NCBI GenBank assembly: GCA_017617395.1 | Contig: JAFZWG010000056.1 | Coordinates: 1 to 52,870 of the forward strand | DNA from: Lachnospiraceae bacterium | GTDB lineage: Bacteria > Bacillota > Clostridia > Lachnospirales > Lachnospiraceae | DNA: 52,870 nucleotides | Reading direction: 5' to 3' | Shown: positions 1 to 52,870 of the stretch, piece by piece | How the letters are laid out: every line of letters starts with the position of its first letter | How positions within the stretch are numbered: position 1 is the stretch's first letter | Notes under the pieces: generated by a model | What the model saw: only the letters and a program-made list of their open reading frames with translations | Databases searched by the model: none | What the model was told of the DNA's origin: nothing | Made by a program: the position numbers and the translations under genes

Positions 1-109
1 AAATATATGGAATTTTTAGGAATTTTTAAATTGTATTTTAGGTTCCGGTTTTATGTTAAACCCACAAAGGATTGGTAGCGCACAGAGAACCCTGCCGGCG
101 GGATGATCT

Positions 110-1633
110 GTGACGACTGAAAAAGGGGGAGCTTCATCGCCTCAAGTGGAGCGAGTAGGCAAGGGGACAAGCCCGGAAAGGAAAAGAATGAAACGACGGA
201 GAATTTTACTGATTGTGACGGCCGTCGTGTTGGTCAGTGCGGTGAGTGGTCTCGTTTTCGCATTGTCGCAAAGAGACAAGGCAGGGAAAGAGAACACAAT
301 CGAGAGTGAGAACAAGAATACGATCGAGAACGAGAACAAGAGCGAGAGCAAAAGCGAAAGCGAGGGCGAGGGCGAGAATAAAAGCGAAGGCGCGGGCGAG
401 AGCAAAAACGAGGCCGAGATCAAGATTGAGTACGAGCTCCCGGAGGTGCCGGAGGGCAGCATTTTAGTATGGCAGCGAACAGCGGAGTACAAGGATTCTG
501 TTCTTGCGGGCGAATACACGTATGATGAGTACGGCCGCTGTGTGAAGAAAGAGATGTTTGTCTTCGGATATCCCGATTGGTTAAAGGAAACAACAATCGA
601 GTACGATGAAGTGACTCACCAAACGACAGAAACAAGTCTGTACGCATATGATGACGGAAGGATTTATCAAAAAGAATGCCGGGTATATTCCGGGAATGGG
701 GACGTAATCAGCTCCTGCGAATGGAGAGTCGAGGAAGACAGGTTCGTTAAGTCACTTGGGAGATTCTACGAACCTTCTGCTGACGGAAAATACGAACACA
801 TTGCCAATGTCTGGTATGGCGATGGATATGTCGTGCAAGTGGAATGGTGGGAATACAGTGAGGACAGGAGGTCGCGATTCTACAGAGAGGCTGACTTAAA
901 AGATTCGGAGGAAAAATGCACGGACAATGATGACTGGCCGACGATACGGGCAGCGGCAGAACGGAACGGAGTCCTTACAGCGGTGGAGGAGTATGACGAG
1001 CAGGGACGAATCGTAGCGAAGTTTGATGTCTGGAACGACGGAACGCGCGAGCAAGTAGTCGGTACTGTTTATTTTGATGACGGATCAATGAAACAAACTG
1101 ATCGCAGCCTTGATTACTGCATCATCTACTCGGTTGATCCGGATCGGGTATATCCGGTCAGATATTGGGATGCGCAGGGACGCTTACTGAGGGAAAACTT
1201 TGTGCATGAAGATACAGGGAAGGTGCTCGGATCCATTGAATATGAGTATGAGGAATTGCCCTCAGGAGGATATAGGCAAAACAGGTACAGTACAAGGGAA
1301 GGGGTACAACGTAAGCTGACAGGGTTCTGGGAATACGACAAAAACGACGCGGAGACCAAGACTGTCGAGATTGACGATGATGGTCAGGAAGTAATTACGC
1401 ATCTCGTGACGTTTGATGATCAGGGACGGGTAATCCGGGAAGAATGGCCTTCGGATGGTATGATTGAATGGAAGTACGACCAATACGGGAATTGCGTCAA
1501 GATAAAAAACCGGTCACCTTGGCGCGGAGGAGGAACGACAACGGAATACGTATACACCCCGATTGTTCTGGAGAAGGACAAGGTCGCTTACGCCGAGTCA
1601 TTTTACGATTTGTTCCGAAATCATGAATCCTGA
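110..1633 (+). CDS. membrane-anchored protein with YD-like repeats
   Basis: Not recognised as a named family. The frame opens with GTG at 110, but the in-frame ATG at 188 has a better purine-rich site upstream (GGAAAGG) and directly starts a KRRR + hydrophobic segment (residues about 27-52 counted from the GTG), so 188 may be the true start. After the anchor comes a low-complexity Glu/Lys/Asn/Ser stretch (about residues 60-105), then a long extracellular part with recurring Y/F-D-x-x-G-R motifs (YDEYGR, YDEQGR, WDAQGR, FDDQGR, YDQYGN), which resemble the strand pairs of RHS/YD-repeat proteins. No RHS core or toxin tip is visible. Inference: a surface-exposed beta-rich protein. It stands alone, followed by a terminator. 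Confidence 0.8.
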   Translation: MTTEKGGASSPQVERVGKGTSPERKRMKRRRILLIVTAVVLVSAVSGLVFALSQRDKAGKENTIESENKNTIENENKSESKSESEGEGENKSEGAGESKNEAEIKIEYELPEVPEGSILVWQRTAEYKDSVLAGEYTYDEYGRCVKKEMFVFGYPDWLKETTIEYDEVTHQTTETSLYAYDDGRIYQKECRVYSGNGDVISSCEWRVEEDRFVKSLGRFYEPSADGKYEHIANVWYGDGYVVQVEWWEYSEDRRSRFYREADLKDSEEKCTDNDDWPTIRAAAERNGVLTAVEEYDEQGRIVAKFDVWNDGTREQVVGTVYFDDGSMKQTDRSLDYCIIYSVDPDRVYPVRYWDAQGRLLRENFVHEDTGKVLGSIEYEYEELPSGGYRQNRYSTREGVQRKLTGFWEYDKNDAETKTVEIDDDGQEVITHLVTFDDQGRVIREEWPSDGMIEWKYDQYGNCVKIKNRSPWRGGGTTTEYVYTPIVLEKDKVAYAESFYDLFRNHES

Positions 1634-1707
1634 TCGGGAAGAATACGTTGTCGGTCCGGCTGTCTTCCGATTTTCATCGGGACATACGAAGGATGACAAA
1701 AGCAGAG

Positions 1708-1746
1708 ATTGCGGTCGTAAAATTTTACGGCCGCGATTTTTTGTGT
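1708..1746 (+). terminator. intrinsic terminator after the YD-repeat gene
   Basis: GCGGTCGTAAAA is followed at once by TTTTACGGCCGC, a 12-bp stem with one G-U pair, then a run of T residues. It lies about 75 bases after the stop codon of the upstream gene. Confidence 0.7.
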
Positions 1747-1754
1747 GGTATAAT
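1724..1754 (+). promoter_or_regulatory. candidate promoter of the sigma/anti-sigma operon
   Basis: A TATAAT hexamer at 1749-1754 has a poor TTTACG/TTACGG -35 match 18-19 bases upstream, overlapping the terminator stem. The leader to the sigma gene would be about 120 bases. An ECF-type autoregulated promoter in 1755-1850 cannot be excluded; I could not identify one. Confidence 0.4.
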
Positions 1755-2439: not shown

Positions 2440-3412
2440 AGATCAGTTGCTGGACGCCATCGGAAACACCGGCGAGTCCATGCTGAAAGAAACCGAACAG
2501 CTCCGCCTCAATGCAGCAGTTAACGATGCGACGGTCACCCGTAATGCTGTCGCGACCACGCGCAGACCTGCCCGCCGGAAAATGATGATTCTCCTGGCGG
2601 CCTGCATGATTCTTCTTCTCGGCACGGTTGCCGCTTACGCCGCAGGCTGGATCGGCGGCCGCGGAGGCAGAGCCGAGACCGGAACGAACGAGGAAGGCGA
2701 GGCATTATTTAAGTACTACCCGAACGAGGACATGCGTGTTCCGATCACGGCAATCACCGGCAATATTCTGAACTGCACCGCGCAGATGAAGGAGAACTGG
2801 CGCATTCTGAGCGCCGGAAATCAGCTCACACCGTACGCTGCCCCGCTTCCGGATTCGTCCTCGATTCCGTTCATCGTTTCCACGGGCTTTAACACTGTCA
2901 CAGAAGCAGCGGCTTATATCGGATATGCAGATATGGTTCTTCCGCAGTTTGCACAAAACACCGCACCGAGCTATGCGTATGTTCAGGCCATCGGAACCGA
3001 TCCCGTAGAACCGCATGCTCTTTTGTCGGCACAGGAGCCGGACTATCTGCTCTGCTGGATGAAACTCGAAGCGTGTTATGCGCTTGACGGTATAACCGTA
3101 TACCTTGACAACTACGTCATCACGGAAGCCAACGAAGAACCCAGAGCAATCCTGAGCACCGCCATTTCCAACGTGCCTCAGGAAGTGGAGTTCGTCTCCG
3201 ATACCGCAACCGCGAACAACCGCGAGTTTGTTGTCATAACGGAGCAGAACATCGATGGCTCCGTGGACGAAGATGTTGTCCGCAAGGAGTACATCTGGGC
3301 CGAGAACAAGGTGGAATACCACCTCTCCATCCGCTACGATGTCAACGACGAGACGACAGCGGCCGCCGAAGCAATCATTGCAGATTGGATGAACAGCTTC
3401 CCGAACGAGTAA
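2432..3412 (+). CDS. membrane-anchored candidate anti-sigma factor
   Basis: 326 residues: a cytosolic N-terminal part of about 50 residues, one transmembrane helix (about residues 51-72) and a 250-residue extracytoplasmic domain without a recognised motif. The start overlaps the sigma-factor stop. This topology and coupling are the usual arrangement of a sigma factor with a membrane-bound regulator, so the role is inferred from context. No zinc-binding HxxxCxxC anti-sigma motif is present. The stop is 30 bases before a perfect terminator. Confidence 0.78.
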   Translation: MNRDQLLDAIGNTGESMLKETEQLRLNAAVNDATVTRNAVATTRRPARRKMMILLAACMILLLGTVAAYAAGWIGGRGGRAETGTNEEGEALFKYYPNEDMRVPITAITGNILNCTAQMKENWRILSAGNQLTPYAAPLPDSSSIPFIVSTGFNTVTEAAAYIGYADMVLPQFAQNTAPSYAYVQAIGTDPVEPHALLSAQEPDYLLCWMKLEACYALDGITVYLDNYVITEANEEPRAILSTAISNVPQEVEFVSDTATANNREFVVITEQNIDGSVDEDVVRKEYIWAENKVEYHLSIRYDVNDETTAAAEAIIADWMNSFPNE

Positions 3413-3480: not shown

Positions 3481-5844
3481 TCATTCCTGATAGTCAAATC
3501 GCAACAGATTGTGGTTGTAATCGTAGTAGTAAATGCAGTTCGCCTCGGTGTCCATCGCAACGTATTTGCCGTACCAGAGGTCCTTGTAGCGCTCGGAGTC
3601 CGCGTTGAAGGAATACTTCCTGCGCGCCTCGAACGACGGACAGCTGCCGACATCGAACGAGTCGGGGTTGAAGCCGTCGCGGTTTTTGCGGCGCTCGTCG
3701 GTGAAGAGGAAGTACGCGAGGTCCGGCTCGTAGTCCTCCGTCAGGCCCCACGTCGGGTCGATCAGGAAGCCCTGTCCGTCGATCGTGACGTACACCCACG
3801 CATGCGAATCATCACCGGCCTTGAGCGCCTCGCCGCCGGACTCCTCCACGTCGACGCCGACCTGCAACAGCAGGAACTGGTACAGCTTCGCGATCTCGTT
3901 GCAGATACCGGTCTTCTCCATGAGGCAGCGATAGCCCGACTGCTTCTCCATCCACTCGGTGCAGTGCGCAAGCATCTCGTAATCGTAGGTGTAATTCTCC
4001 GTCATGTACTCGTACAGAGCGAGCGCCTTCTCAATGTCCGAGTAATCATCGCGAAGCGCATCGTTTAAGATGTCGCAGATCATCGTCTCGAACTCTTCCT
4101 GCTTCTTGAGGTATTCCTCCTTCGGAATCCGGTAGCAGATCTCGACCCAGCCGTCCTTGTACTCACCCGCGTAGGTGTAGATCGGTCCGACAAGGTTGAA
4201 GAAATAGCCGAGCCGCCCGAAGCACCATCCCGCGGTGTCGAAGTCGAAACACTCAAAGCGGTCCTCGCCCGCGCGCAGCGCATCCACGTAGTTGAACAAG
4301 GCCTGGCGGCGCTTCTCGCCGTGCTCTTTCAAATAGAATTCGGAAAATACATGCGGCTGAAACGTGTAGTGTCCGCCCTCTCCGTTGTTCTCCATATTTT
4401 CCGGGTGAACGGTCTTCGACTCGCCCGCACGAAGCACATCGGGATTGTTCTTGACGCCGATGATGAAGGAGTTGACGAAGTCGAGCTCACGGAGCATTTC
4501 CGGCCCGGTCAGAGGCTTTTCCTCATGCACCGCGTCGGGGTCGATCACAAGTCCGTACTTCTCTTCCGCTTCCTTGCGAAGCTTCGCGAGATTGTCCGCA
4601 AATGCTTCCCCGGTCAGCTCGACGAGCCCCGAGATCGGCGCTGCGCTCTTCTTCGTGTCCCACAAAAGAAGCCCGTTCTCGCCGTCCTTAGTCATGTAGT
4701 CAATCAGCATCAGGCCGTCCCCGAGCATGCCGCGCGTCCGGATGAAATCCAGGTTCGGAATGTCCCTGATGCTCAGGCCGGAGGACATTGTCCGGTTCTC
4801 CACATCGTAGAGACGGTACTCGTTTTGCCATGCATTTTCGTACGTAAAATCCGCGGACGCGCACAGGCAATTGCCCTGCAAAAACTCGATCGCCTCGCCC
4901 GCCTGCGCCTTGGAAAATGCAAACATACCGTCGGCTTTTCCGACCTTTCGAAAGCACCACGTCGACGCCAGCCGGTCGATCTGCCACATGTTGTGGGAAC
5001 CTGTGTACATGCTGACGGTCTTCTCCTCCCCGTCGTCCGCATCGTTTGCGACAATCTCCGCCGCGCCGCCGCTTACGGGCACGGACAGATAGCGGAACGT
5101 TCCGTCCTTGTCGTATCCGGAGATGTAGTATCTCCCGTCGCGCTCGCCGTGGAACATAGACAACATGATCGTCGGGTCGAACGTGATCGTCGCGGTCGTC
5201 TTCCCTTCAAGGTCCCTCACGTCGATCCGGCCCTCGTCCCGGAACACCGTCAACACACGGCCGCTTTCCGTGATCGCGAACGCGGGCACGTGATTCTCGT
5301 CCCCCGCCACGACGCGAAGCTCCTTCATCGTGTTGTCGTAGATGTGCAGATCCGCCGTATCGAGATCCTCCAGGATTACGGTTCCGCCGTCGAGCACCAC
5401 CCGGGCCGACGTCGTGAACGAGGGCATCACGCTGTACGATTCCGTGCGGATTCCCGGCGCAAGCAACACGAAGATGTTCTTCGAATTGTTGGCCATACCC
5501 TCGGTCTCTTCCTCGTCCGTAACCTTCACGGGTTCGTTGAGCCACATCAGTGCGTACTCGCCGCCGAAGGCCGTTTCGATCACGTAGCGGTCTTTGGTAA
5601 ATTCCGCAACCGGAACACGGTAGATATCGTCCCTGCCAAACGTTTCGTACGTCGCACGGTAAAAGCAGACCGTCGGTGTCGGGGTCGCCGTGGCCGCAGG
5701 CGTCGACGTCGCGGACGGCGTCACGGTCACGTCGGTAGTATTGTTCTTTTTGTCCTTCCCGCAGGCGGTCGCAACGACCGCGCACAGAAGGATCAGTGCT
5801 GCAAGAATGCCGATTTGCATTCGGTTTTGTTTCATTTTTCGCAT
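3481..5844 (-). CDS. lipoprotein with C-terminal transglutaminase-like domain
   Basis: About 787 residues. Signal peptide with a lipobox Cys at residue 28 (VATAC), then a Thr/Pro/Ala linker, a roughly 400-residue region of short strand-like segments suggesting a beta-propeller, and a C-terminal transglutaminase-like domain: Cys648 (TGICNE), His681 (DSHAWVYV), Asp696 (LIDPTWG) form the expected Cys-His-Asp triad. Inference: surface-bound cysteine peptidase or cross-linking enzyme. A GTG at 5865 in the same frame has AAAGGAG 8 bases upstream, but the related gene ending at 8065 has a stop codon in the equivalent short frame, so I prefer the ATG at 5844. The promoter was not found. Confidence 0.85.
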   Translation of the reverse strand: MRKMKQNRMQIGILAALILLCAVVATACGKDKKNNTTDVTVTPSATSTPAATATPTPTVCFYRATYETFGRDDIYRVPVAEFTKDRYVIETAFGGEYALMWLNEPVKVTDEEETEGMANNSKNIFVLLAPGIRTESYSVMPSFTTSARVVLDGGTVILEDLDTADLHIYDNTMKELRVVAGDENHVPAFAITESGRVLTVFRDEGRIDVRDLEGKTTATITFDPTIMLSMFHGERDGRYYISGYDKDGTFRYLSVPVSGGAAEIVANDADDGEEKTVSMYTGSHNMWQIDRLASTWCFRKVGKADGMFAFSKAQAGEAIEFLQGNCLCASADFTYENAWQNEYRLYDVENRTMSSGLSIRDIPNLDFIRTRGMLGDGLMLIDYMTKDGENGLLLWDTKKSAAPISGLVELTGEAFADNLAKLRKEAEEKYGLVIDPDAVHEEKPLTGPEMLRELDFVNSFIIGVKNNPDVLRAGESKTVHPENMENNGEGGHYTFQPHVFSEFYLKEHGEKRRQALFNYVDALRAGEDRFECFDFDTAGWCFGRLGYFFNLVGPIYTYAGEYKDGWVEICYRIPKEEYLKKQEEFETMICDILNDALRDDYSDIEKALALYEYMTENYTYDYEMLAHCTEWMEKQSGYRCLMEKTGICNEIAKLYQFLLLQVGVDVEESGGEALKAGDDSHAWVYVTIDGQGFLIDPTWGLTEDYEPDLAYFLFTDERRKNRDGFNPDSFDVGSCPSFEARRKYSFNADSERYKDLWYGKYVAMDTEANCIYYYDYNHNLLRFDYQE

Positions 5845-5938: not shown

Positions 5939-8065
5939 TCAGTCCATCGACAGGGCCGGGTATCTGCTCCAGTCCGCCATGCGGTCCGCGGGCTGAACGA
6001 TGCCGGTCGCGCGCTCCCAGAAGAGCGGCTCCGTGCTCGCCGCAACGCACGGGAACGCGGCGCGGATGACCGCACACACATCTTCCGCCTTCTCGCGCAG
6101 GTGCGGGTAGGCGTCAAGCATCTTCCGGTTCTCGGCGTAGAGCTCCTCCATCAGTGTCGCGCGGTCCTCGAGCTCGTTCCACATGCCGTACGTGCGCGTG
6201 TACCACACGTCGTTCGGGTCGATGCCCCGCTCCTCGACGCCGTACCACCAGGCGCCGCGGAACACGCCGTCGTTGACGGGCTCCGAATCGCCGCGCGTAT
6301 ACGGATACTTCTCCGACGTCCGCTCGGCAGCCCAGTAGTTGTCCCAGTTGATTCCGTTCTCAATGCAGTAGTTGAAGATGCGGTGCTCCAAAAGGTGCAT
6401 CGTCTCGTGCGCAAACGTCGTCGGACCGCCGTCCAGGCCGGTCTGGGCGAATGCCACCGCAAGGTTTGCGGAGTACGTCTGCACGCAGCCGCCCGCGGAA
6501 AATCCTTGCATCCCGATGCTCTCGAGGCTGTTCACCAGATACATGTCAAGGCCGTCGCGGTCGTCGGAGAGCATCTCCCGCCAGATTGTCTTCGGATACA
6601 GTTTCAAATAGTACGCCACCGTCTCCACGTACCCCAGGACCTTCCGTTCCGACGTCATCGGCTCGATCGTATACCACGGGGCAAAAACGCACTCCTCGAC
6701 ACTCTTTTTGTCGTAGTGAATCCGGATTCCGTACTCCTCCTCGATCTCCGCGATGCGCTTTGCGATATGCTCGGCAACCGGTTCAACGGCAACGAAAGAA
6801 ACTCCCTCAATCGGCTTCGCCGTCTCGCGGTTCACATCCCACAGCAAAACGTCCGCGCCCGTCTCCGTCCGGCCCGCAAACAGCACATAGCCGCGGTCGG
6901 TCATGCTCTTTGCATAGAGATTCGTGTACTGCGGCAACTCCTCCGCCAAAAGCTCGCCGCAGAGCGTGCGGGCATCAAAATCATAGACCCGGAAATCAAG
7001 CGCGCGAGGCGCCCCCACAGCGGTCTTGACAACACCGTTCTCCTTGTCGCAGCGCTGGGCCGCTTCCCCCCAGGTGAGGAACCGGACTCCGCTCCACTTG
7101 CTGATGCCCTCGCGGAACGCAGCCTTCGGAAAATACAGCTCATTTTCCGTGTCTCCCAGCTTGTGAATGTACCACAGGACATCGGCGGTCTCGCAGGCGA
7201 GTATGCCCTCGATGTCCGTCCCTTTGGGTTCTCCCGCAATCGGTGTCAGCTCCGTTGCCCCCGGAAGAAGCACCAGCGGCTGTACGAGGTAGTTGGAATC
7301 CATTCCGCGGAAATACCGCACGCCGTCTGTAAGGCAGCAGTACGAATAGACGGAGCTGTCGCCGGCATAGGTGTATTCGCCTACGCAATTCCCCTGCAAG
7401 TCAATGGCAGTAAGCGTCTTTTGCGGCGCTGTGCAGACAACCCAGAGGAGACCGTCCTCCGAAATGTCGAGGAGATACCCCTCGCGGCCCTCCTTCGGCG
7501 CCACCGTGCCAACCTCCTCGAATTCGCGGTTGTACACGCGAACCAGCTCCGAATCCGTATCCTCCATCACAACCGTTCCGTCCGCCAGAAGGCGCGCGTT
7601 GCTCTCCCGATACGAGGGGATAAAGCGGCGTGTCAGGTCCGGCCTCCCCAGATGGAACAAAACATACTCGCCCTTCATGGTCTCCGAAAAATACTCCGGG
7701 TCACAGAGGAAGGCGAGCACGTAGTCGCCCGCGGACTGCACATCTAAAATCTCGATCTCCGACTTCCGGTCCGCAGGGTTCACTCCATCTTTGACCGCTC
7801 CCTTGCCGACCGTGCCCTCAAGCAGGCGGTACACTGTGCTCTTGCCGACCGTCTCGTAAAGGTCCGAAAGGACATAGTCCTTCGGCTCGCGCTCCGGCGT
7901 CGGTGTCGGTGTCTGCGTGGCCGTCGCTGCCGCCGTCACGGTCACACTCGTGTTGTTCTTTGCGGTGTCCCTGCCGCAGCCGGCAAGAAACGCAAGATAC
8001 AACAAAAAGGCCGGTAGTAAAACGCCGACCCTGATCTTGGTAAGCATCGTATTCATTTTTCGCAT
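5939..8065 (-). CDS. lipoprotein with C-terminal HExxH zincin-like domain
   Basis: 708 residues. Signal peptide with lipobox LAGC (Cys30), Thr/Pro linker, a strand-rich sensor-like front half similar in layout to the neighbour at 3481-5844, and a C-terminal domain with HETMH at residues 553-557, the HExxH zinc-binding signature; the EDRA motif at 633-636 could supply a third ligand. Inference: surface zinc metallopeptidase. Leader and first codons (ATGCGAAAAATGAA) are nearly the same as in the downstream gene, so the pair probably arose by duplication followed by exchange of the enzyme end. Substrate unknown. Confidence 0.85.
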   Translation of the reverse strand: MRKMNTMLTKIRVGVLLPAFLLYLAFLAGCGRDTAKNNTSVTVTAAATATQTPTPTPEREPKDYVLSDLYETVGKSTVYRLLEGTVGKGAVKDGVNPADRKSEIEILDVQSAGDYVLAFLCDPEYFSETMKGEYVLFHLGRPDLTRRFIPSYRESNARLLADGTVVMEDTDSELVRVYNREFEEVGTVAPKEGREGYLLDISEDGLLWVVCTAPQKTLTAIDLQGNCVGEYTYAGDSSVYSYCCLTDGVRYFRGMDSNYLVQPLVLLPGATELTPIAGEPKGTDIEGILACETADVLWYIHKLGDTENELYFPKAAFREGISKWSGVRFLTWGEAAQRCDKENGVVKTAVGAPRALDFRVYDFDARTLCGELLAEELPQYTNLYAKSMTDRGYVLFAGRTETGADVLLWDVNRETAKPIEGVSFVAVEPVAEHIAKRIAEIEEEYGIRIHYDKKSVEECVFAPWYTIEPMTSERKVLGYVETVAYYLKLYPKTIWREMLSDDRDGLDMYLVNSLESIGMQGFSAGGCVQTYSANLAVAFAQTGLDGGPTTFAHETMHLLEHRIFNYCIENGINWDNYWAAERTSEKYPYTRGDSEPVNDGVFRGAWWYGVEERGIDPNDVWYTRTYGMWNELEDRATLMEELYAENRKMLDAYPHLREKAEDVCAVIRAAFPCVAASTEPLFWERATGIVQPADRMADWSRYPALSMD

Positions 8066-9516: not shown

Positions 9517-9803
9517 ACTTCCTTCTCGTCCGAAACCGCCTCATCCGCCACACTCTCATCCGGCTTGCTCTCATCCGGCTTGCTCTCATCCGGCTTTCCG
9601 GGCACATAGTCGTCCTTGTGCACGCGGTTGTACGATGCCGCCATGACCCAGCCGAAGATCGGCACAAACACGATTCCGAACAGGCCGGTCTTAAAGAGCG
9701 GCACGCCCTCCTCGCCGGAAAATGCGCCGATGAACGTGATAACGATGGACACCAATACCAAAAGTAACGTGATGCTCAGCACCACAATCGGAAATTTCTT
9801 CAT
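9513..9803 (-). CDS. small membrane protein with KPDES repeats
   Basis: 96 residues, two predicted transmembrane helices (about residues 5-28 and 38-57) and a hydrophilic acidic tail containing three KPDES repeats encoded by a 15-bp tandem repeat. No family recognised. It is the first gene of a pair with the glycoside hydrolase (ATGA overlap). The start at 9803 has AGCGAGGGGGG upstream, a reasonable site. Confidence 0.75.
   Translation of the reverse strand: MKKFPIVVLSITLLLVLVSIVITFIGAFSGEEGVPLFKTGLFGIVFVPIFGWVMAASYNRVHKDDYVPGKPDESKPDESKPDESVADEAVSDEKEV
9555..9598. repeat. 15-bp tandem repeat, three copies
   Basis: CTCATCCGGCTTGCT repeats at 9555, 9570 and 9585 (last copy diverges at its end). 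It encodes the KPDES repeats in the tail of the membrane protein and keeps the reading frame when copies are gained or lost. Confidence 0.85.
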
Positions 9804-10849: not shown

Positions 10850-10867
10850 CATTTTCCGCGGAAAATG
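10850..10867. repeat. inverted pair of the GGAAAATG motif
   Basis: CATTTTCCGCGGAAAATG is a perfect 18-bp palindrome made of two copies of the octamer that recurs through the window. It sits directly after the yigZ stop codon, where it could fold as a hairpin, but no T tract follows. Confidence 0.75.
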
Positions 10868-38662: not shown

Positions 38663-39295
38663 TCACTTTTCATTGTTCCACTGATACCGCGAAAGGTCCA
38701 CAACCCCGTTCACAACCTCGATACCTTCTGCACGGAGAAGCTTCGCCTGCTGCCCGGCACCGCCGAATGCAAACTCCCCGGCAAGCTCTCCCTTTGAATT
38801 CACAACGCGGAAGCACGGTATTCCCGCGGGATCCGGGTTTTTGTGAAGGGCATTGCCGACGGCGCGTGCCATTTTCCGATCGCCCGCGACCTCCGCAATC
38901 TGCGCGTAGGTTGCCACGCGACCGTACGGAATCTTTTTGACCGCCTCGTAGATCCGTTTGGACGGATTGTCGGAGATCAGGTCATAGCTCTCCGCAATCA
39001 TCAGCTTCACGTCCCGGTCCGGGATGCTTCCGTCGAGAATCACCGTGTTCCAGTGGTCCTTGTTCTGGTGATAGCCCGGGATCACGGCAGCGTAGATCTG
39101 CCGCCAGAAGATCGCTTTCTCCGGCGCTACCTTGACATTCAAATTGACATAGCCGTCCTTTTCGTACGTCCACAGAAACGCCTTTTTGTTGCCTTTGCAG
39201 CGCACCAGCTGCCAGTTCGCGTCGTGAAACGGCGCGTCCTGATACGTATCCTCAAACGAAAGACCGTATGCGAGTGCTTCTTCCCGTGTTTTCAT
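38663..39295 (-). CDS. MmcQ/YjbR-MGMT-like fusion protein
   Basis: 210 residues from the ATG at 39295 (GGAGG upstream). Residues 1-110 are an MmcQ/YjbR (DUF419) domain (FEDTYQDAPFHDANWQLVRCK, VNLNVKVAPEKA). Residues 112-208 are an MGMT DNA-binding domain: RIYEAVKKIPYGRVATYAQIAEVAG, RAVGNALHKNP, IPCFRVV, LAGEFAFGG. The active-site Cys161 is kept but the canonical PCHR reads PCFR, so alkyl transfer may be altered. Probably a DNA-alkylation sensor. The last codons overlap the downstream upstream-region of the PHP gene. Confidence 0.83.
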   Translation of the reverse strand: MKTREEALAYGLSFEDTYQDAPFHDANWQLVRCKGNKKAFLWTYEKDGYVNLNVKVAPEKAIFWRQIYAAVIPGYHQNKDHWNTVILDGSIPDRDVKLMIAESYDLISDNPSKRIYEAVKKIPYGRVATYAQIAEVAGDRKMARAVGNALHKNPDPAGIPCFRVVNSKGELAGEFAFGGAGQQAKLLRAEGIEVVNGVVDLSRYQWNNEK

Positions 39296-42218: not shown

Positions 42219-43677
42219 CCGCTTCACCGCCTTTCAGGTCCTTGATTCTATAATAATCCGCCATCTTCACATTCAGTTTCACATAAGAATCCGCTTTTCG
42301 GTTGCTCACCCGCTCGAGGAGCACACAGCTTTCGACATGCACGCTGCCGGGGAACTGATCGACCGGCTGCACGCGCTCAAGGCGGTAGCCTTCGGCACAC
42401 AGGATCTTGAGGTCGCGAGCGAGCGTCGCGGGGTCGCAGGAGACGTAAACGATACGCGAAGGCGCCATCGCGAGCATGGTCGTGAGAAGCTTCTCGTCGC
42501 AGCCCTTACGGGGCGGATCGACGACGATCACGTCCGCGCCGATCGCGGGGTTCTCCTTCACTAGCTGCGGGAACACCTCCTCGGCAGCTCCCACGTAAAA
42601 TTCCGCATTCGTAAGCCCGTTAATCCGGGCATTTTCCTTCGCGTTTTCGATGGCCTCGGGAACAATCTCGACGCCGTACACCTTCTTCGCCGCCTTCGCG
42701 AGGAAGAGGGAAATGGTGCCGATCCCGCAGTAGAGATCCCACACGGTTTCGTTGCCGGTGAGGCCCGCGTACGCAAGCGCCGTGTCATACAGAACCTTCG
42801 TCTGCACAGGGTTCACCTGGTAGAAGGACATCGGCGAGATCTCGAATCGCACGTCGCCGATGCAGTCGGTGACCGACGCCTTCCCGAACAACGGGATCAG
42901 CCGGTCTCCGAGAATGACATTGGTTTTCTCACGGTTGACGTTGAGGCAAAGCCCGACTACGCCGGGAACCGTCTTTAAATGCTCCCACAAAAACTCGGGC
43001 TTCGGGATCTTCGTGCCGTTCACGACAAGGCAAACCACGATCTCGCCGGTCGCAAAACCCTTGCGCATCAATACGTGGCGCACAAGTCCCCGCCCGGTCT
43101 CCTCGTCGTACGGCTTTGCGCCGCTCTCCGTGAGGTACTCGCGTACCGCCGAGAGAATCTCCTCATGGCCGGGCCAGAGCATTCCGCACAATGCGGTCGG
43201 CACGATGCGGTGGCTGTGGCCTGCGTAGAAGCCGAGAACCGGCTCCGCTGCGCCGCCCTTGCCGACGGCCGTCCCAACCGGGAACTGGCCCTTGTTGCGG
43301 TACGCGCGGGGCTCATCCATGCCGATGATCGGCTGCACGGCGATGTCCGTGAAGCCGCCGATCCGGCGGATGCAGTCCTCCACTTTTTTCTGCTTCAGTG
43401 CCAACTGGGATTCGTACGCAAGGTAAGAGAGCTGGCAGCCGCCGCAGGAGCCCGCCACGGGGCACTCAGGCGTGACGCGGCCGGGCGCGGGAGTGATAAT
43501 CTCCTCCGCCTTCGCAATCGCGTACGTCTTTTTGGCCTTCAGTATGCGGGCGCGGACAGTGTCGCCCGGAACCGCACGAGACACAAAAAGAGTGAACCCG
43601 TCGACATGACCGATTCCCTCTCCCGTGTCACTGATATCTTCGATTGTTACCGGAACGATCTGATTCTTACTAAACAC
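42211..43677 (-). CDS. rlmCD: 23S rRNA (uracil-C5)-methyltransferase, RlmD/RlmCD type
   Basis: 488 residues. TRAM domain (about 1-60), iron-sulphur cysteines Cys72, Cys78, Cys81 and candidate Cys102 (ECPVAGSCGGCQLSYLAY), AdoMet motifs WDLYCGIGTISLFLA and VVDPPRKGCDEKLL, and catalytic Cys414 in VYVSCDPATLARDL. Methylates C5 of uracil in 23S rRNA; sites U747/U1939 follow from the Firmicute family, not from this sequence. GTG start with GAAAGGGTGAG. A C-terminal extension of about 30 residues follows HVESCVLLERV. Confidence 0.93.
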   Translation of the reverse strand: MFSKNQIVPVTIEDISDTGEGIGHVDGFTLFVSRAVPGDTVRARILKAKKTYAIAKAEEIITPAPGRVTPECPVAGSCGGCQLSYLAYESQLALKQKKVEDCIRRIGGFTDIAVQPIIGMDEPRAYRNKGQFPVGTAVGKGGAAEPVLGFYAGHSHRIVPTALCGMLWPGHEEILSAVREYLTESGAKPYDEETGRGLVRHVLMRKGFATGEIVVCLVVNGTKIPKPEFLWEHLKTVPGVVGLCLNVNREKTNVILGDRLIPLFGKASVTDCIGDVRFEISPMSFYQVNPVQTKVLYDTALAYAGLTGNETVWDLYCGIGTISLFLAKAAKKVYGVEIVPEAIENAKENARINGLTNAEFYVGAAEEVFPQLVKENPAIGADVIVVDPPRKGCDEKLLTTMLAMAPSRIVYVSCDPATLARDLKILCAEGYRLERVQPVDQFPGSVHVESCVLLERVSNRKADSYVKLNVKMADYYRIKDLKGGEADG

Positions 43678-43724: not shown

Positions 43725-44669
43725 TCACACTTCCGTGATGCGGATGTTGGACTCCAGAAGGCGCTGGAACCCGAGCCACCCGTTCACCGCGGTCGAACTG
43801 CCGTCGCGCATCAGCTCGCGGAGCGTCTCCATCTTCGCATCCAGATTGTCCGCCATCGACAGCGCAAGCGCCTCGCACAATGCGGGCTTCTTCGGCGAGC
43901 CGAACTCAAGCTCCCCGTGGTGCGCCAGAATGCAATGCTTCAGCTCCGCAGCGAGCGTCTTCGGGAAGCCCGGAATCGCCTCGATCTTGCGGCCGACCAT
44001 CTCGGCGCCCATGTAGATGTGGCCGAGGAGATTGCCCTCGTCGGTGTAATCATTTTCCGGGAACTCCGAGAGTTCCTTGAGCTTGCCGATGTCGTGGAAC
44101 ATCGCGGCCGTCACCAGAAGGTCGCGGTTTAAGATCGGGTACTGCTTTGCGTAGAACTCGCACACCTGCGTCACGCTTAAGGTGTGCTCCAGCAGTCCGC
44201 CGATAAATGCATGGTGAACGCTCTTCGCCGCCGAATGCTTGCGGAACAGCGACAGAAACGCCTTATTCTCGAAAAATTCACCCAGCAGCTGCTTTAAGTG
44301 CGGGTTGGAAACCGACGCTGCGATGGCACGGATGTCCTTGAGCATTGCCTCGACATCCTTCTCGGTGCACGGCATGTAGTCGTCCACGTCGTACTCGCCC
44401 TCGTCCGCCTTGCGAACGCGCGTGATCTTCAGTTGCAGCGCGCCCTGGAAGGATGTGGCCTCGGCGTCCACCTTGATGTAGTCCATCGCCTCAAAATGCG
44501 CGATGCCGCTGCCGAGCTCCCAGATCTTGGCGTCCGCCGTGCCGGTCTTGTCCTGCAGCGTGAGCGCCATATAGCTCTTGCCGGCCTTGGTTTTCAGGGT
44601 CTGAACCTGCTTGCACAGGTAGATTTCCGAGAAGACCTCGCCTTCCCGCAACTCACTGATATACCGCAT
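43725..44669 (-). CDS. yhaM: YhaM family 3'-5' exoribonuclease
   Basis: 314 residues, normal size. N-terminal OB fold (about 10-90; MALTLQDKTGTADAKIWELG), then an HD domain with HHAFIGGLLEHT, FHDIGKL (His192-Asp193), GHIYMGAEMV, LAHHGELEFGS and ALSMADNLDAKME, which bind a divalent metal. The family trims 3' ends of RNA and also acts on DNA. GAGGACG precedes the ATG. It lies 24 bases after the dead HtrA-like gene. Confidence 0.92.
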   Translation of the reverse strand: MRYISELREGEVFSEIYLCKQVQTLKTKAGKSYMALTLQDKTGTADAKIWELGSGIAHFEAMDYIKVDAEATSFQGALQLKITRVRKADEGEYDVDDYMPCTEKDVEAMLKDIRAIAASVSNPHLKQLLGEFFENKAFLSLFRKHSAAKSVHHAFIGGLLEHTLSVTQVCEFYAKQYPILNRDLLVTAAMFHDIGKLKELSEFPENDYTDEGNLLGHIYMGAEMVGRKIEAIPGFPKTLAAELKHCILAHHGELEFGSPKKPALCEALALSMADNLDAKMETLRELMRDGSSTAVNGWLGFQRLLESNIRITEV

Positions 44670-44693: not shown

Positions 44694-45977
44694 TTATTCC
44701 TTCGTGATCGTAACATCGATCGTCTCTTCCTTGCCGCCGCGCAGATACGTCACGCGCATCTTGCCGACGCCCGCCTCCCGGCGCAAGATCCGGTTGAAAT
44801 CACTTATGTAGTAGATCGTCTCATCCTGCACCGCCAGGATCGTATCGCCCTTGCGGAAGCCCGCCGTATCGGCCGGCGTGTCCTCGCAGATCTCCGTGAT
44901 GCGGATGCCGCCCTTGATGCCCTCGCGCTTGCGAACCGCCGAGGAGAGCTCCGTAAAATAAGCCCCGAAGACCGGCGTCTTGTCGTTGTTCAGCAGATCG
45001 TTCAGTGTGGCTGTCAGGCTCTTGTCGATCGCGATGGCGCGCAGGCAATTACCGGTGTCAAAATCCTCGCTCAGAATACCGACCACCTCGCCTGCGGCGT
45101 TGACCAGAACACCGAATGCGTTTTCATGGCGCACCATGTTCGTCTGCATCAGACCGAGCGAATTGTCGCGGATGTAGATCGGCTCGCTGTCGCCGTTGAT
45201 CAGACCGAAATCCACCGACCAGCCGGTTCCGTTCACGCAGCCGATGGCAACGACCGCGGATCCCATGTCCGCCGACTTGCCGTCGCCGAGCTTGACCTTT
45301 CCGATGGATTTGCGGTCAACCTCCGCCATGCCCTTGCCGGACACGGCAATCACTGCAAGATGCAGCTCACGATTGCGCTTCACGATGCGCGCCGTTCCCT
45401 CGGCACCGTTCGAGAACGTCGCAACGATCTCGTCGTATTTGCCGTCGAGCTCCTCGTCGCGAACTAAAAGAAGATACTCCGTGCCGTTCTCTTCGATGAC
45501 GACGCCGAAGAACGTTCTTCCCTCCGCAGTCTTCTGTCCGAAGACCGGATCCGAGGTGTACGTCACCGCGGACACTTCCGCAAAGCACGGGCGATACGCC
45601 CTGGCCGTCTTGCGGACTCCCGTGTAGATCGCCTCGATGTCGGCAAATGCCGTCGGGTCGATCTGGATCTCCGACTGATCCGGCGTGGGCGTTGCCGACC
45701 CTCCGTCACTCGGACGCACATCGACCGGTCTCTTGTTGTCCTCAAGGTTGTCCAGGACTCCGCTGGTGATGCGGTAGACGACCGAGGCGATGATGCCGAA
45801 CAGGGCGGCACAGAAGATTACCGTGAGCGCCAGGGTGAGCATTTTCCGACGGCGGATGCTGCGGTTCTGGGGGAGCTGCTCCTCCTTGATGAAGCCGTAG
45901 CTGTCGGCCGCGTTGTCATCCGATGTATCGAAGATGGATTTGCCCTTTTTGGTTGATCGATTGAATAACTTTCCCAT
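44694..45977 (-). CDS. HtrA-like PDZ protein, catalytically dead
   Basis: 427 residues: cytosolic N-terminus, one transmembrane helix (46-69), a Thr/Pro-poor linker, a trypsin-like domain of HtrA type (about 130-320) and a PDZ domain (about 335-425; GIRITEICEDTPADTAGFRKGDTILAVQDE). The HtrA GNSGGPLVN reads ENAFGVLVN (Ser replaced by Ala287), DLAV reads HLAV (His206), and the catalytic-His region reads LLLVRDEEL. All three catalytic residues are gone while the fold and PDZ domain remain, so it probably binds rather than cleaves. Downstream of the histidine kinase. Confidence 0.85.
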   Translation of the reverse strand: MGKLFNRSTKKGKSIFDTSDDNAADSYGFIKEEQLPQNRSIRRRKMLTLALTVIFCAALFGIIASVVYRITSGVLDNLEDNKRPVDVRPSDGGSATPTPDQSEIQIDPTAFADIEAIYTGVRKTARAYRPCFAEVSAVTYTSDPVFGQKTAEGRTFFGVVIEENGTEYLLLVRDEELDGKYDEIVATFSNGAEGTARIVKRNRELHLAVIAVSGKGMAEVDRKSIGKVKLGDGKSADMGSAVVAIGCVNGTGWSVDFGLINGDSEPIYIRDNSLGLMQTNMVRHENAFGVLVNAAGEVVGILSEDFDTGNCLRAIAIDKSLTATLNDLLNNDKTPVFGAYFTELSSAVRKREGIKGGIRITEICEDTPADTAGFRKGDTILAVQDETIYYISDFNRILRREAGVGKMRVTYLRGGKEETIDVTITKE

Positions 45978-45994
45978 TTTCCGACTCCTCTCCG

Positions 45995-48159: not shown

Positions 48160-50523
48160 TTACTTAAACTCCACGTCCGTCGAGCCGTAGTCCGGCGAGA
48201 CGGTGATACCCTTTACGTACTTCAGTCTCTTGCAATGGTTGTGCACGGCGGTGCGCAGCGCGCCCGTGCCGCGTCCGTGGATGACCGTGACCTTCGGCAG
48301 ATGCGCGAGGTACGCGTCGTCCAGATACTTATCAAGCTCCGCCAGCGCCTCATCCACGCGAAGTCCCACCAGGTTGATGTCAGGGTGGATGGTCATGCTC
48401 TTCGCGCCGGTCGAAACCTTCACGCCTGCGGTGCCCTTGGTCTCCTCGGGCTCCTCGAGCTTCGCGAGGTCGGAGATATTCACCTTCGACTGCAGAATGC
48501 CCATCGTGACGAAGCACTCGCCCTTCTCGTTCGGCAGCGTGTGGATCGTGCCCTTTAAGTTCATGCTGAGCACCATGACCGAATCGCCGATCTTGAAGTC
48601 CGAGGCCTTGTGCTGCTTCGCGGGCCGGTTGACCTGCTTCGGCTGCGACATATGCTCCTCCAGGGAGCTGATCTTCTCGCGCGTCTTGCGGCGCTCATTT
48701 TCCAAATCCGCCGAGGACACGTGCGACTCGAGCTTGCGGACTCTTCGGATGGACTCGTCGGCGTACGACTTCGCCTCCTCGAGCGTCTCGAGCGCCTCCT
48801 CGCGGGCTTTTCTTAAGATATCCTCGCGCTTTGCGGCGATCTCCTCGGTCTTCTTCTCCCACTCGGCGCGCATCGCCTCCGCGGCTCTGCGGTCCTCGCG
48901 GGCCCGGAGAAGCTCGCCCTCCATCGCGCGGCGCTTGTCCTCGAGGTCCGTGATCACGTCCTCAAAATTCTTGTCCGACTCGCCGACGAGCGTCTCCGCC
49001 TCATCGATGATCGTGTCCGAAAGCCCCAGCTTCTTCGAGATGGCAAATGCATTGCTCTTGCCGGGAATGCCCATCAACAGCCGGTACGTCGGCTGCAGCG
49101 ACTCCACGTCGAACTCGCAGCAGGCGTTCATCACGCCCTCCGTGCGCAGCGCAAAGAGCTTGAGCTCCGCGTAGTGCGTCGTTGCGATCGTGCGGATATC
49201 GAAGCGGTGCAGATGAAGCAGGATCGCCGTTGCCAGCGCCGCGCCCTCGGTCGGGTCCGTGCCGGCGCCGAGCTCGTCGAACAACACGAGCGAATCCTCG
49301 TCCGCCTCCGCTAAAATCTTCACCGTATTGGTCATGTGCGAGGAAAATGTACTGAGCGACTGCTCGATGCTCTGCTCGTCGCCGATGTCGGCGTACACCT
49401 CGCGGAAAAATCCCATCTCCGTTCCCGATTTTGCGGGGATCGGAAGTCCTGCCTGCGCCATCATCGTGAACAGGCCGACCGTCTTGAGCGTTACCGTCTT
49501 ACCGCCGGTGTTCGGGCCGGTGATGACGATCATCGAAGGGTCCTCGCCGAGCGCGATATCGATCGGCACGACCTTCTTATCCGGGATCAGCGGGTGACGA
49601 CCCTGGATGATCCGGATCGTGCGGTTGTCCGTAAAGATCGGACGGTTTCCGCGGATCGCGCGGCCGAACATGGCTCTTGCAAAGATCAGATCGAGCTCCG
49701 CGAGGCACTCCCCGTTGTAGCGAAGCTCGGGCACCTGCGGCGCGATCATCTCCGAGAGAGCCGCCAGCACCTTCTGAATCTCCTCCTGCTCCGCGATCGC
49801 AAGCTCGCGAAGCTCGTTGTTTAACTTGACAACCTCCATCGGCTCGATGAAGGACGTCGATCCCGATGCCGACTGGTCGTGGACCATGCCGGCAATCTGG
49901 TTTTTATACTCACTCTTGTAGGGAAGACAGTATCTTCCGTCGCGCTGCGTGATCAGCGCATCCTGCAGAAGTCCCTGCGCCGACGCCTGCGCCAGCAGCG
50001 CGCCCATGCGCTCGTGGATCTTGTCATTGGCCGCCTTGATCTTGCGGCGCACGCTCCGAAGGCCCGAGCTCGCATCGTCCGCGATCTCCTCCTCCGAGAG
50101 GATGCAGCGGTTGATCTCGCGGCACAGCTCCGGAAGCGTCTCCAACAGCTCAAACCGCTCTGTCAGCGAATCCTGCGGCGCGTCCTCGCCGCGCGTTCCG
50201 GTCGTGCCGTACTGCTTCACGCGCTGCGTCGCCGTCAGGATTGAACCGATTCGCAAAAGCTCCGGCGCCGTCAGGCAACCGCCGTGCTGCAATCGCACCA
50301 GGCTCTCGCCGATGTCGCCGATGCCGCCGAAGGAAAGGCTTCCCTTTCGGTCGATTCGGCGCGTCGCGTCCTCGGCCTGCAGCTGCAACAGGTCCGCGTC
50401 CTCCTTCGTTCCGGCGGGCATCAACTTGCCTGCCGCCTCCCGGCCGAGCGTTGAGCCGGTGTAGTGTATCAACATTTCGCGTATCCGGTCGAACTCGAGT
50501 ACGCGAACCGCCCTTTCATTCAT
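48160..50523 (-). CDS. mutS2: MutS2 endonuclease
   Basis: 787 residues, normal length. MutS-core region (about 130-330), ATPase with Walker A GPNTGGKT (336-343) and Walker B DELGAGTDPTEGAAL, long coiled coil (about 510-640, acting as the lever), and a C-terminal Smr domain with LVGLRVDEALAELDKYLDDA and VIHGRGTGALRTAVHNHCK; the HGRGTG is the nuclease motif. MutS2 limits recombination and, in some Firmicutes, rescues stalled ribosomes. No mismatch-recognition domain. Preceded by AAGGAG. Confidence 0.95.
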   Translation of the reverse strand: MNERAVRVLEFDRIREMLIHYTGSTLGREAAGKLMPAGTKEDADLLQLQAEDATRRIDRKGSLSFGGIGDIGESLVRLQHGGCLTAPELLRIGSILTATQRVKQYGTTGTRGEDAPQDSLTERFELLETLPELCREINRCILSEEEIADDASSGLRSVRRKIKAANDKIHERMGALLAQASAQGLLQDALITQRDGRYCLPYKSEYKNQIAGMVHDQSASGSTSFIEPMEVVKLNNELRELAIAEQEEIQKVLAALSEMIAPQVPELRYNGECLAELDLIFARAMFGRAIRGNRPIFTDNRTIRIIQGRHPLIPDKKVVPIDIALGEDPSMIVITGPNTGGKTVTLKTVGLFTMMAQAGLPIPAKSGTEMGFFREVYADIGDEQSIEQSLSTFSSHMTNTVKILAEADEDSLVLFDELGAGTDPTEGAALATAILLHLHRFDIRTIATTHYAELKLFALRTEGVMNACCEFDVESLQPTYRLLMGIPGKSNAFAISKKLGLSDTIIDEAETLVGESDKNFEDVITDLEDKRRAMEGELLRAREDRRAAEAMRAEWEKKTEEIAAKREDILRKAREEALETLEEAKSYADESIRRVRKLESHVSSADLENERRKTREKISSLEEHMSQPKQVNRPAKQHKASDFKIGDSVMVLSMNLKGTIHTLPNEKGECFVTMGILQSKVNISDLAKLEEPEETKGTAGVKVSTGAKSMTIHPDINLVGLRVDEALAELDKYLDDAYLAHLPKVTVIHGRGTGALRTAVHNHCKRLKYVKGITVSPDYGSTDVEFK

Positions 50524-51034: not shown

Positions 51035-51036
51035 AC

Positions 51037-52209
51037 TTATTGTTTCTCCGCGCGAAGCTTTGTGACGAACCGGCGAAGCCGTCCGAGCGCCTCCTTGAGG
51101 TTCTCAAGCGAGTACGCGTACGAGATTCTAAGGAATCCCTCGCCGCTGTCGCCGAACGCCGTGCCGGGCACGATCGCAACCTTCTCCTCATGAAGAAGCC
51201 TGGTCGCAAAAACCTCGCTGCTCATGCCGAACTCCGCGATGCACGGGAACACGTAAAATGCACCGTACGGCTCAAAGCACGTAAGCCCCATGTCACGAAG
51301 CTCCGACAGAACGAAGCGGCGTCTCTTATCGTACGCATCGCGCATCATCGCGACGTCCTCATCGCCGTTCTTGAGGGCCTCAACCGCCGCATACTGGCTC
51401 GCGGTCGGCGCGCACATGATGGCGAACTGGTGGATCTTCATCATCTGTTTGATGATCTCCTCGGGACCGCACGCGTAGCCCAGACGCCAGCCGGTCATCG
51501 CGTGTCCCTTGGAAAATCCGTTGATCAGAATCGTGCGCTCGCGCATGCCCGGAAGCGATGCGATGGACACATGCTTCGAACCGTACGTAAGCTCGCTGTA
51601 AATTTCGTCCGAAACAACGACGATGTCCTTCTCGATGCAGACCTCGGAGATTGCCTCAAGGTCCTCCTTCGTCATGATCGCACCGGTCGGGTTGTTCGGG
51701 AACGGAAGCACTAAAAGCTTCGTCTTGTCGGTGATCGCGTCGCGCAGCTCCTGCGCCGTCAGGCGGAAATCATTTTTCTCCTGCAGCGGGATCGTCACCG
51801 GAACACCCTGCGTCAGGATGACGCACGGCTCGTAGGAAACGTAGCACGGCTGCGGGATGATGACCTCCTCGCCCGGACAAACCATCGCGCGAATCGCAAG
51901 GTCGATGGCCTCGCTGCCGCCGACAGTGACAAGAATTTCACTCTTCGGATCGTAGTTTACGTTGTAGTGGCGGTCGATGTAGGCGCTGATCTCGCGGCGA
52001 AGCTCGATCAAACCGGAGTTTGAGGTGTAGTGCGTGCGCGCCTTCTCGAGCGAGTAGATACCCTCCTCGCGAATGTGCCACGGCGTCGCGAAGTCAGGCT
52101 CGCCGACACCCAGACTGATGGCGTCCTTCATCTCCGTGACGATGTCGAAAAATTTGCGTATGCCCGAGGGTTTGATGCCCACCACGGACGGATTTAACGG
52201 ATTTCTCAT
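51037..52209 (-). CDS. class I/II PLP-dependent aminotransferase
   Basis: 390 residues. Fold-type I motifs: GVGEPDFATPWHI, TVGGSEAIDLAIRA, FPNNPTG (Asn173), VVSDEIYSEL (Asp201, Tyr204), and Schiff-base Lys234 in INGFSKGHAMTGWRLGY; C-terminal Arg in FLRISYA. Probably an aromatic or aspartate-type aminotransferase (PatA-like); substrate uncertain. Its ATG overlaps the stop of the Lrp-type gene (ATGA), which suggests the regulator controls it. Confidence 0.9.
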   Translation of the reverse strand: MRNPLNPSVVGIKPSGIRKFFDIVTEMKDAISLGVGEPDFATPWHIREEGIYSLEKARTHYTSNSGLIELRREISAYIDRHYNVNYDPKSEILVTVGGSEAIDLAIRAMVCPGEEVIIPQPCYVSYEPCVILTQGVPVTIPLQEKNDFRLTAQELRDAITDKTKLLVLPFPNNPTGAIMTKEDLEAISEVCIEKDIVVVSDEIYSELTYGSKHVSIASLPGMRERTILINGFSKGHAMTGWRLGYACGPEEIIKQMMKIHQFAIMCAPTASQYAAVEALKNGDEDVAMMRDAYDKRRRFVLSELRDMGLTCFEPYGAFYVFPCIAEFGMSSEVFATRLLHEEKVAIVPGTAFGDSGEGFLRISYAYSLENLKEALGRLRRFVTKLRAEKQ

Positions 52210-52694
52210 GGCGAAACAAGCATCCTTTCATCCTCGATTTTGTTTACAAGCGGAAGACCGTGCTCCTTGTATTTCTTCAGCACAAAGTGCGTCGACGTCG
52301 AGAGCACCGAGTCCATCGGAGAAAGCTTGCTCGAGACAAATTCCGCCACACTCTGCAGCGTCTTGCCGTGAATCATCACGCACAGGTCGAAGCCGCCGGA
52401 CATCAGGAACACCGCATCCACCTCATCGAACTGATAAATTCTCTCCGCGATCTTGTCGAAGCCCTGACCTCTCTGCGGCGTCACCTTCACCTCGATCATC
52501 GCGGTCACAAGCTGACGGTCCGTCTTGTCCCAGTTGATCATCGTGGGATAACCGCAGATGATGCGCTCGTCCTCCATCTCCTTGATCGAAGCCGCAACGG
52601 CCTCCTCGCTCTCGCCGAGCATCACGGCGAGTTCCTTTACGGTAAGCTTGGCGTTCTGGTCCAGGCTCTCCAGAATTCTCATATCTACGCTCAT
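52206..52694 (-). CDS. Lrp/AsnC family transcription regulator
   Basis: 162 residues. N-terminal winged helix (about 1-55; LDQNAKLTVKELAVMLGESEEAVAASIKEMEDERII) and C-terminal RAM ligand-binding domain (about 62-140; AMIEVKVTPQRGQGFDKIAERI, VFLMSGGFDLCVMI). Typical length. AAAGGAGG precedes the ATG. Coupled to the aminotransferase gene by a four-base overlap, so it likely senses an amino acid handled by that enzyme. Confidence 0.92.
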   Translation of the reverse strand: MSVDMRILESLDQNAKLTVKELAVMLGESEEAVAASIKEMEDERIICGYPTMINWDKTDRQLVTAMIEVKVTPQRGQGFDKIAERIYQFDEVDAVFLMSGGFDLCVMIHGKTLQSVAEFVSSKLSPMDSVLSTSTHFVLKKYKEHGLPLVNKIEDERMLVSP

Positions 52695-52870
52695 TTCAGC
52701 AACCTCCTTTTATTCGACGCGAATTCATGTATTTCCCCCGCCGCGGCGTCGACCGCGACGCAAACGCCTCGCTCGCAGGAAAATGCTCGCTCACCGTTTG
52801 CTCGCGTTTCCGCCCCGGCTGTCGAAAGGCGGTAAGTCGCGTCGTAGAAATTGATTCGCGTATATGAGAC

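Follow-up and report, generated by a model that had tools for sequence, protein, structure and literature searches.

A genome-wide octamer with lineage-specific spellings in Lachnospiraceae, a probable DNA uptake sequence

Background

In Neisseriaceae, the DNA uptake sequence (DUS) GCCGTCTGAA is read by the minor pilin ComP. Genomes with such words carry inverted pairs of them in high numbers, according to a passage of PMC3630211. For the uptake signal sequence (USS) of Pasteurellaceae, with its core GCGG, a minor pilin is predicted as the receptor in an excerpt of PMC12616744. Genomes of Veillonella parvula have been screened for over-represented words; according to a passage of PMC5397411, that screen named no candidate, and no word of at least 10 bases reached 100 copies. 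Here we describe an octamer, GGAAAATG, that is strongly over-represented in a 52,870-nucleotide stretch of Lachnospiraceae DNA (the window), which is contig C15 of a 2.34-Mb metagenome-assembled genome (MAG) of 97 contigs, 85% complete. The Lachnospiraceae are a Gram-positive group with no outer membrane. The octamer is probably the DNA uptake sequence of a transformation system based on a type IV pilus, a function that we infer from its abundance, placement and relatives. As a whole word, GGAAAATG had no match in the open literature searched, preprints excluded; Lachnospiraceae are mentioned in one passage of PMC3388099 solely for a restriction enzyme.

Results

The window holds 34 copies of GGAAAATG, 13 on the plus strand and 21 on the minus strand, exactly the count given in an earlier note made from the letters of the window; 100 dinucleotide shuffles gave a mean of 1.98 and at most 8, so the chance level is about two copies and not about one, as that note had estimated. 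As it had also stated, most copies (26 of the 34) are preceded by C, and they lie on both strands, in and between genes: 24 within genes (15 sense, 9 antisense), 9 intergenic and 1 at a gene edge. Gene coordinates and these classes come, here and below, from a home-made gene caller. In the whole 2.34-Mb genome there are 1313 copies (620 and 693 by strand) against 25 (11 and 14) of the control word, GGAAAATG reversed, a number within the hundreds to thousands, far above expectation, that are seen for a DUS. Because of these strand counts, neither of the two outcomes that the earlier note had set beforehand as fatal to its reading (a genome-wide frequency near expectation, or the disappearance of copies outside the window) is what we found.

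Placement was studied in a 396-kb subset of the genome, in which 217 copies comprise 93 sense, 65 antisense, 54 intergenic and 5 at gene edges. Since 89% of this sequence is coding and only about 11% is non-coding, the 54 intergenic copies represent an enrichment. When the 322 predicted coding sequences were shuffled among synonymous codons (n = 200), 20.1 +/- 3.7 copies were obtained (largest 33) as compared to 158 seen, while the reversed word was seen once against 4.2. The word thus occurs on both strands, in and between genes and beyond what codon use provides, as a DUS does, and the statement of the earlier note that codon use alone is insufficient is borne out.

Expected word counts in this subset were taken from an order-3 Markov model. 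The extended word CGGAAAATG has 132 copies against 8.8 expected, and its main tolerated variants, CGAAAAATG and CGGCAAATG, have 79 against 7.6 and 47 against 8.3, respectively; the strongly tolerated changes are those of the third and fourth letters of CGGAAAATG. The first letter is loose (changed forms 15–35 against 3–5 expected), as is the last (18–24 against 6–12), and CGGAAAATA and its C and T forms, with 24, 24 and 18 copies against 6.1, 11.5 and 5.8, exceed expectation 2- to 4-fold. Within the AAAT core, 11 of the 12 one-base changes are below expectation and the sole change above it is CGGACAATG (12 against 5.1). Alignment of the flanks of the 217 copies, which had been suggested as a way to a longer consensus, yielded C as the preceding base in 61% of them and C or A as the following base in 71%, with farther positions near background; the graded consensus is C-G-[G/a]-[A/c]-A-A-A-T-G-[c/a]. 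A mobile repeat as the source of the copies was rejected, as the flanks fall to near background within about two bases. The near variants GGAAAATA/C/T in the window number 19 (9, 8 and 2) and not about ten as previously counted. The graded tolerance of the word suggests a protein recognition site.

Motif deserts that might mark genomic islands were also rejected: in a 615-kb subset with 531 sites the longest gap is 7.5 kb, against about 7.3 kb from random spacing.

The comparison with related genomes that the earlier note had called for covered a genus set of 22 genomes including our own, a family set of 150, and k-mer samples of ten genera. In 20 of the 22 genus genomes, GGAAAATG exceeds its reversed control 6-fold or more; in these, the ratio of GGAAAATG to a second spelling, GGCAAATG, ranges from about 8:1 in G014 (1672 to 215) to 0.8:1 in G012 (491 to 614); the two spellings are about equally frequent in G007 (672 and 622), and G004 has 449 and 438. 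In other genera, the frame GGNNAATG appears with other centres. G110 favours GGGCAATG (45 against 4.2 expected), GGTCAATG (47 against 5.9) and GGCCAATG (27 against 2.9), and G126 favours GGAAAATG (49 against 12.0) and GGGAAATG (31 against 7.3). Among all XXNNYYYY frames, GGNNAATG ranks top in G110 (269 copies against 81; z 20.9, with 9.0 for the runner-up) and likewise in G126 (185 against 76; z 12.6, with 8.2 for the runner-up); in our own genome and G007 a shifted form, CGNNAAAT, ranks first and GGNNAATG second. The signal in G176 is weaker: GGTAAATG has 27 copies against 5.6, GGNNAATG is not the first frame and a different word leads. Lineage dialects with a conserved core, typical of a DUS, therefore stand out in three of the ten genera sampled and, more weakly, in a fourth. 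Loci of the MAGs RGIG8251 and RGIG7058 carry the G110-like spelling (42 to 5 and 39 to 3). The named carriers L071, L108 and L109 are all MAGs. The remaining six genera (G186, G088, G151, G163, G104 and G148; 72–107 kb sampled) have no dominant motif and a weak frame excess of 1.3- to 1.7-fold, for example GGGAAATG in G186 (18 against 5.4) and GGCCAATG in G163 (10 against 2.3). In 21 loci whose PilT identity is 67–78%, the frame occurs about as often as expected (155 against 161), although GGTAAATG alone has 29 against 15.

Two of the sampled genera contain further abundant words: the top octamer of the G176 sample (L193–L197) is GGCTACCA, with 19 copies against 2.8, and in the G110 sample (L173–L182) GCGAACAA (23 against 5.3) and AGGCGAACAA (10 against 0.3) are over-represented beside the motif.

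Conservation was measured where the fetched parts of our genome and five relatives could be aligned at 68% DNA identity or more, with words of the same composition as controls. Copies in our genome are kept letter for letter in 33 of 65 cases, as compared to 250 of 770 for control words (Fisher p 0.004), and copies of the relatives in 33 of 45 cases against 250 of 836 (p 7e-9); the cases are not independent, because one of our sites can count once per relative. Without G007 the figures are 21/30 against 98/303 for our sites and 21/29 against 98/296 for those of the relatives. The sites of G007 itself are kept in 12 of 16 cases, against 152 of 540 for controls.

A search for comEA, comEC and type IV pilus genes had been proposed as a check, and they were found. 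PilT is over the cut-off in all 22 genus genomes, ComEA in all 16 genomes tested, and ComEC has a match in 20 of the 22 genus genomes, the two exceptions being the fragmented G020 and G021. DprA was searched for in our own genome, where it is present beside comM-like and topA-like genes (names read from the translations). The pilus operon of G009 encodes a PilB-like ATPase, PilT, a T2SSF protein, two pilins, a prepilin peptidase and PilM, along with three further proteins, among those scanned, that have a prepilin signature, making five pilin-type proteins in all. In the fetched parts of our own, incomplete assembly no pilins were seen because the PilB-like gene stops at a contig end. Type IV pilus and competence genes thus accompany the word in the same genome, as they do a DUS. 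The placement of our assembly in the Lachnospiraceae has the following basis: one of its PilT proteins is 94% identical to that of Lachnospiraceae RGIG7903, a MAG from water-buffalo reticulum, with the next best loci under the same label, and RGIG7903 DNA can be aligned over several kb around this pilT gene at 83–86% identity.

In G015 and G016 the ComEC match is split over frames or contains stops, which could reflect gene decay or assembly error. A link between loss of ComEC and loss of the motif was considered and no conclusion drawn: both genomes keep the motif, and assembly error is possible.

Alternative explanations

An unlikely alternative is a housekeeping word tied to DNA methylation, repair or chromosome packing, like the highly iterated palindrome HIP1 of cyanobacteria, which is linked to orphan methyltransferases in a passage of PMC4390886. 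The density of GGAAAATG, its presence in and between genes and its lineage-specific spelling would all fit such a role, but the word is not palindromic, as HIP-like words are, and its core is graded.

A Chi-like site, at which the AddAB nuclease would halt and RecA loading would start in break repair, was raised as an alternative in the earlier note and appears quite improbable. Chi sites are short, asymmetric, over-represented and conserved words, and a Chi word, too, could drift between lineages. However, the leading-strand excess expected of Chi is missing in all three genomes in which the suggested strand-bias check was run. In our genome, the share on the G-rich strand is 0.61 (189 against 120; 10-kb bins with clear GC skew in the 615-kb subset) as compared to 0.68 for 279 other words of the same composition; with each genome's own words, G007 has a leading-strand fraction of 0.59 against 0.62, and G110 one of 0.36 (41/113) against 0.58. 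Polarity of the Chi type or of the type of FtsK-orienting polar sequences (KOPS) was thus rejected, and the enrichment of copies between genes also speaks against Chi. Both Chi-like and HIP-like roles are less likely than uptake.

The inverted pairs bear on another rival, that the word is the operator of a regulator or a terminator element, which we consider very improbable for the motif as a whole. Counting all three spellings, the 396-kb subset has 16 opposite-strand pairs no more than 40 bases apart, whereas 200 random placements averaged 10.1 and never exceeded 19, so that inverted pairs as a general layout were rejected. Thirteen of the 16 are not wholly within a gene; 8 of the thirteen are flanked by divergent genes, which places them at 5' ends. 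The earlier note had presented 3'-end inverted pairs as an uptake-type feature, which does not generalize from its two examples in the window. Both of these do exist after stop codons. The first, palindromic, is at 10850..10867 (10850-10857 on the minus and 10860-10867 on the plus strand) and starts 6 bases past the stop of gene 10191-10844. The second spans 24301..24323 (24301-24308 plus, 24316-24323 minus), not 24300-24324 as had been given, between two minus-strand genes and 55 bases past the stop of gene 24379-25383 (minus). Two further pairs involve the variant GAAAAATG: one at 15145..15167, between divergent genes, and one with GGAAAATG at 22780..22818, straddling the 3' end of gene 22806-24281 (minus). 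An exact palindrome, CATTTTTCGAAAAATG, has four copies in the 396 kb (G000; L047:17866-17881, L049:5170-5185, L051:5551-5566 and L052:5020-5035), all between divergent genes. Given these four palindromes and the 8 of 13 pairs between divergent genes, a subset of copies may be operators, but most copies are single, and 158 of the 217 copies of the main word are inside genes, on either strand.

The idea that frequent codon pairs such as GAA-AAT give rise to the octamer as a side effect has next to no probability, even though GGAAAATG outnumbers its reversed control in most genomes of the family set of 150 (G084 and G092 are among the exceptions), in the manner of a compositional or codon baseline, since the synonymous shuffles (20 against 158) and the intergenic (54 of 217) and antisense (65) copies rule out codon use as the main cause in this genome.

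Proposed mechanism and its weak points

As an uptake sequence, the word would work as follows. A surface pilin would recognize an asymmetric word with the C-GG-NN-AATG frame in double-stranded DNA and bind there, and the pilus would be retracted by PilT. The DNA might then be handed to ComEA, a single strand would enter via ComEC, and DprA and RecA would recombine it into the chromosome. Because tagged fragments would be taken up preferentially, tags would spread and be maintained by biased recombination, and drift of the receptor between lineages would produce dialects in which the frame is conserved and the centre changes. The word itself, its statistics, conservation and spellings, and the pilus and competence genes are what we observe; pilin binding, preferential uptake and the very ability of these bacteria to transform are all steps that we infer. 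As for the broader picture, in which rumen and gut Lachnospiraceae, outside Neisseriaceae and Pasteurellaceae, transform via a retractable type IV pilus with a pilin that reads C-GG-NN-AATG, and in which dialects partition gene exchange between genera, we lean slightly towards it.

Several observations weigh against an uptake function. Close inverted pairs are no more frequent than by chance and mostly lie off 3' ends. The 17 pilus regions (up to 20 kb each; L203–L218 and L221, from 17 genus genomes) hold 56 copies where genome density would give 120. The machinery does not predict the motif: with at most 12 candidates scored per genome, PilT is over the cut-off in 97 of the 150 family genomes, including the motif-poor G148, G151 and G186. 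A weak frame excess is also seen where no PilT is over the cut-off, namely in G163 (88 against 57) and G104 (84 against 56); these two of the high-GGNNAATG genomes of this kind were sampled (107 and 80 kb), with G099 (contigs below 1 kb), G080 and G106 left out. Within the genus, G006 and G017 lack the motif despite having PilT and ComEC: GGAAAATG is below 6-fold over its control (221 against 82 and 257 against 57, respectively), and GGCAAATG is below its own (106 to 130 and 84 to 176). With G007 alone, our sites show no excess conservation (12/35 against 152/467 for controls). The ComP_DUS family PF16732 stays below its cut-off in G009, with one pilin at E 3.8e-4 and 21.7 bits against 27.3. 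Finally, the literature searched contained no experiment on uptake or transformation in this group.

PilT is found in all four genera with the motif and, among the remaining six, in G186, G151 and G148 but not in G088, G163 or G104. Ten sampled genera are too few to show an association between motif and PilT.

We have not moved from regarding uptake as probable, because the chance-level inverted pairs and the polarity controls of G007 and G110 have opposite effects on the assessment. Of the readings tested, the uptake sequence of the earlier note is the best supported, for a word that is genome-wide, conserved, split into dialects, no more polar than words of its composition, unexplained by codons and accompanied by pilus and competence genes; the part of that reading that concerned 3'-end inverted pairs is not upheld.

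The search for the receptor yielded one lead. Across the genus, the operon's second pilin shows good conservation, with 53% mean column identity (15 genomes); the first pilin has 37% in an alignment of 18, a figure that is not like for like because that alignment includes two outgroups. In the motif-less G006 the second pilin lacks most of its globular part (L207:6382-6669), and in the equally motif-less G017 it is complete. On the single case of G006, the second pilin may be put forward as one candidate reader, as a lead only.

Two other routes to the receptor gave little signal. Matches to Pfam ComP_DUS are weak: at E <= 0.1, PF16732 is matched by 2 of 18 first pilins and none of 15 second pilins. 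As for pilin charge, the isoelectric point of one minor pilin and the motif density in 14 genomes are not significantly correlated (rho 0.45, p 0.10), and this route was rejected.

If the uptake function is correct, this would be a third, independent case of an uptake word, in a Gram-positive gut family, and would mean that such words evolve repeatedly. It would also suggest that transformation among rumen and gut bacteria has gone unnoticed, would open the old question of the origin of uptake words to testing on further dialects, and could perhaps ease the introduction of DNA into commensals that are difficult to study.

Copies of the octamer in the window

Apart from the inverted pairs, copies of GGAAAATG in the sense orientation lie inside gene 2432-3412 (plus) at 2577..2584 and inside gene 5939-8056 (minus) at 7141..7148. 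A copy at 13492..13499 (plus) lies in a penicillin-binding protein gene, as does an antisense one at 11460..11467 (minus). Other antisense copies on the plus strand are at 4912..4919 (gene 3481-5835, minus), 9717..9724 (gene 9513-9803, minus), 25135..25142 (gene 24379-25383, minus) and 28830..28837 (gene 28358-28888, minus), and one on the minus strand is at 15362..15369 (gene 15229-17178, plus). Gene 28958-29848 (minus) contains both an antisense copy at 29163..29170 (plus) and a sense copy at 29287..29294 (minus). Three minus-strand copies coincide with or approach 3' ends: 22811..22818, close to that of gene 22806-24281 (minus), 26032..26039 (gene 26031-27095, minus) and 35704..35711 (gene 35703-36908, minus), the last gene having another sense copy at 36747..36754 (minus). 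The copies at 14458..14465 (plus), 14660..14667 (minus), 19043..19050 (minus) and 52778..52785 (plus) are intergenic, the first two by the home-made caller.

Further minus-strand copies lie in the gene for a transporter of the MFS type (33605..33612), in sense in gene 38663-39295, minus (38870..38877), and in genes for a tRNA (uracil-5-)-methyltransferase-like protein (42630..42637), an HD-domain protein (44051..44058) and a trypsin/PDZ protease (45840..45847); the one at 45975..45982 (minus) spans the start of gene 44694-45977 (minus). A MutS-family gene carries an antisense copy at 31532..31539 (plus), and a copy at 32877..32884 (minus) also lies in a MutS-family gene; a MutS2-like gene (MutS_V and Smr) has one at 48696..48703 (minus) and an antisense one at 49342..49349 (plus). 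The 53-kb contig encodes three MutS-domain genes (30404-33561, 48160-50523), of which two are adjacent and one has an Smr domain. The copy at 41394..41401 (minus) falls in a stretch, 39296-42210, without a called gene. This stretch of 2.9 kb also has no tRNA or Rfam match, and open reading frames of more than 150 aa are present in it.

Comparison with known systems

The closest parallel is the DUS of Neisseriaceae, which is likewise a short asymmetric word with many copies in and between genes, in genomes with type IV pilus and ComEC genes, and which likewise has dialects with a conserved inner core, as described in part of PMC3630211. The two differ in word, core, phylum and envelope; the inverted pairs of the Lachnospiraceae word are at chance, no ComP was identified for it, and its role in uptake is a predicted one. 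With the USS of Pasteurellaceae it shares a high density and the occurrence of variants, whereas word and lineage are unrelated, and uptake specificity is known there and predicted here. Veillonella parvula is, like the Lachnospiraceae, a Firmicute, and its natural transformation favours genomic DNA over PCR product, according to a passage of PMC5397411. The Chi sites of RecBCD and AddAB are similarly short, asymmetric and over-represented, but the motif has no leading-strand excess over composition. HIP1 of cyanobacteria (GCGATCGC) is also a genome-wide over-represented octamer, but it is palindromic and contains methyltransferase sites, as stated in part of PMC4390886. The Lachnospiraceae pattern agrees with the known uptake words of both Neisseriaceae and Pasteurellaceae in the density of copies, their placement and conservation, and the variation of the spelling. 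It does not agree in inverted pairs, and lineage, word and envelope are different.

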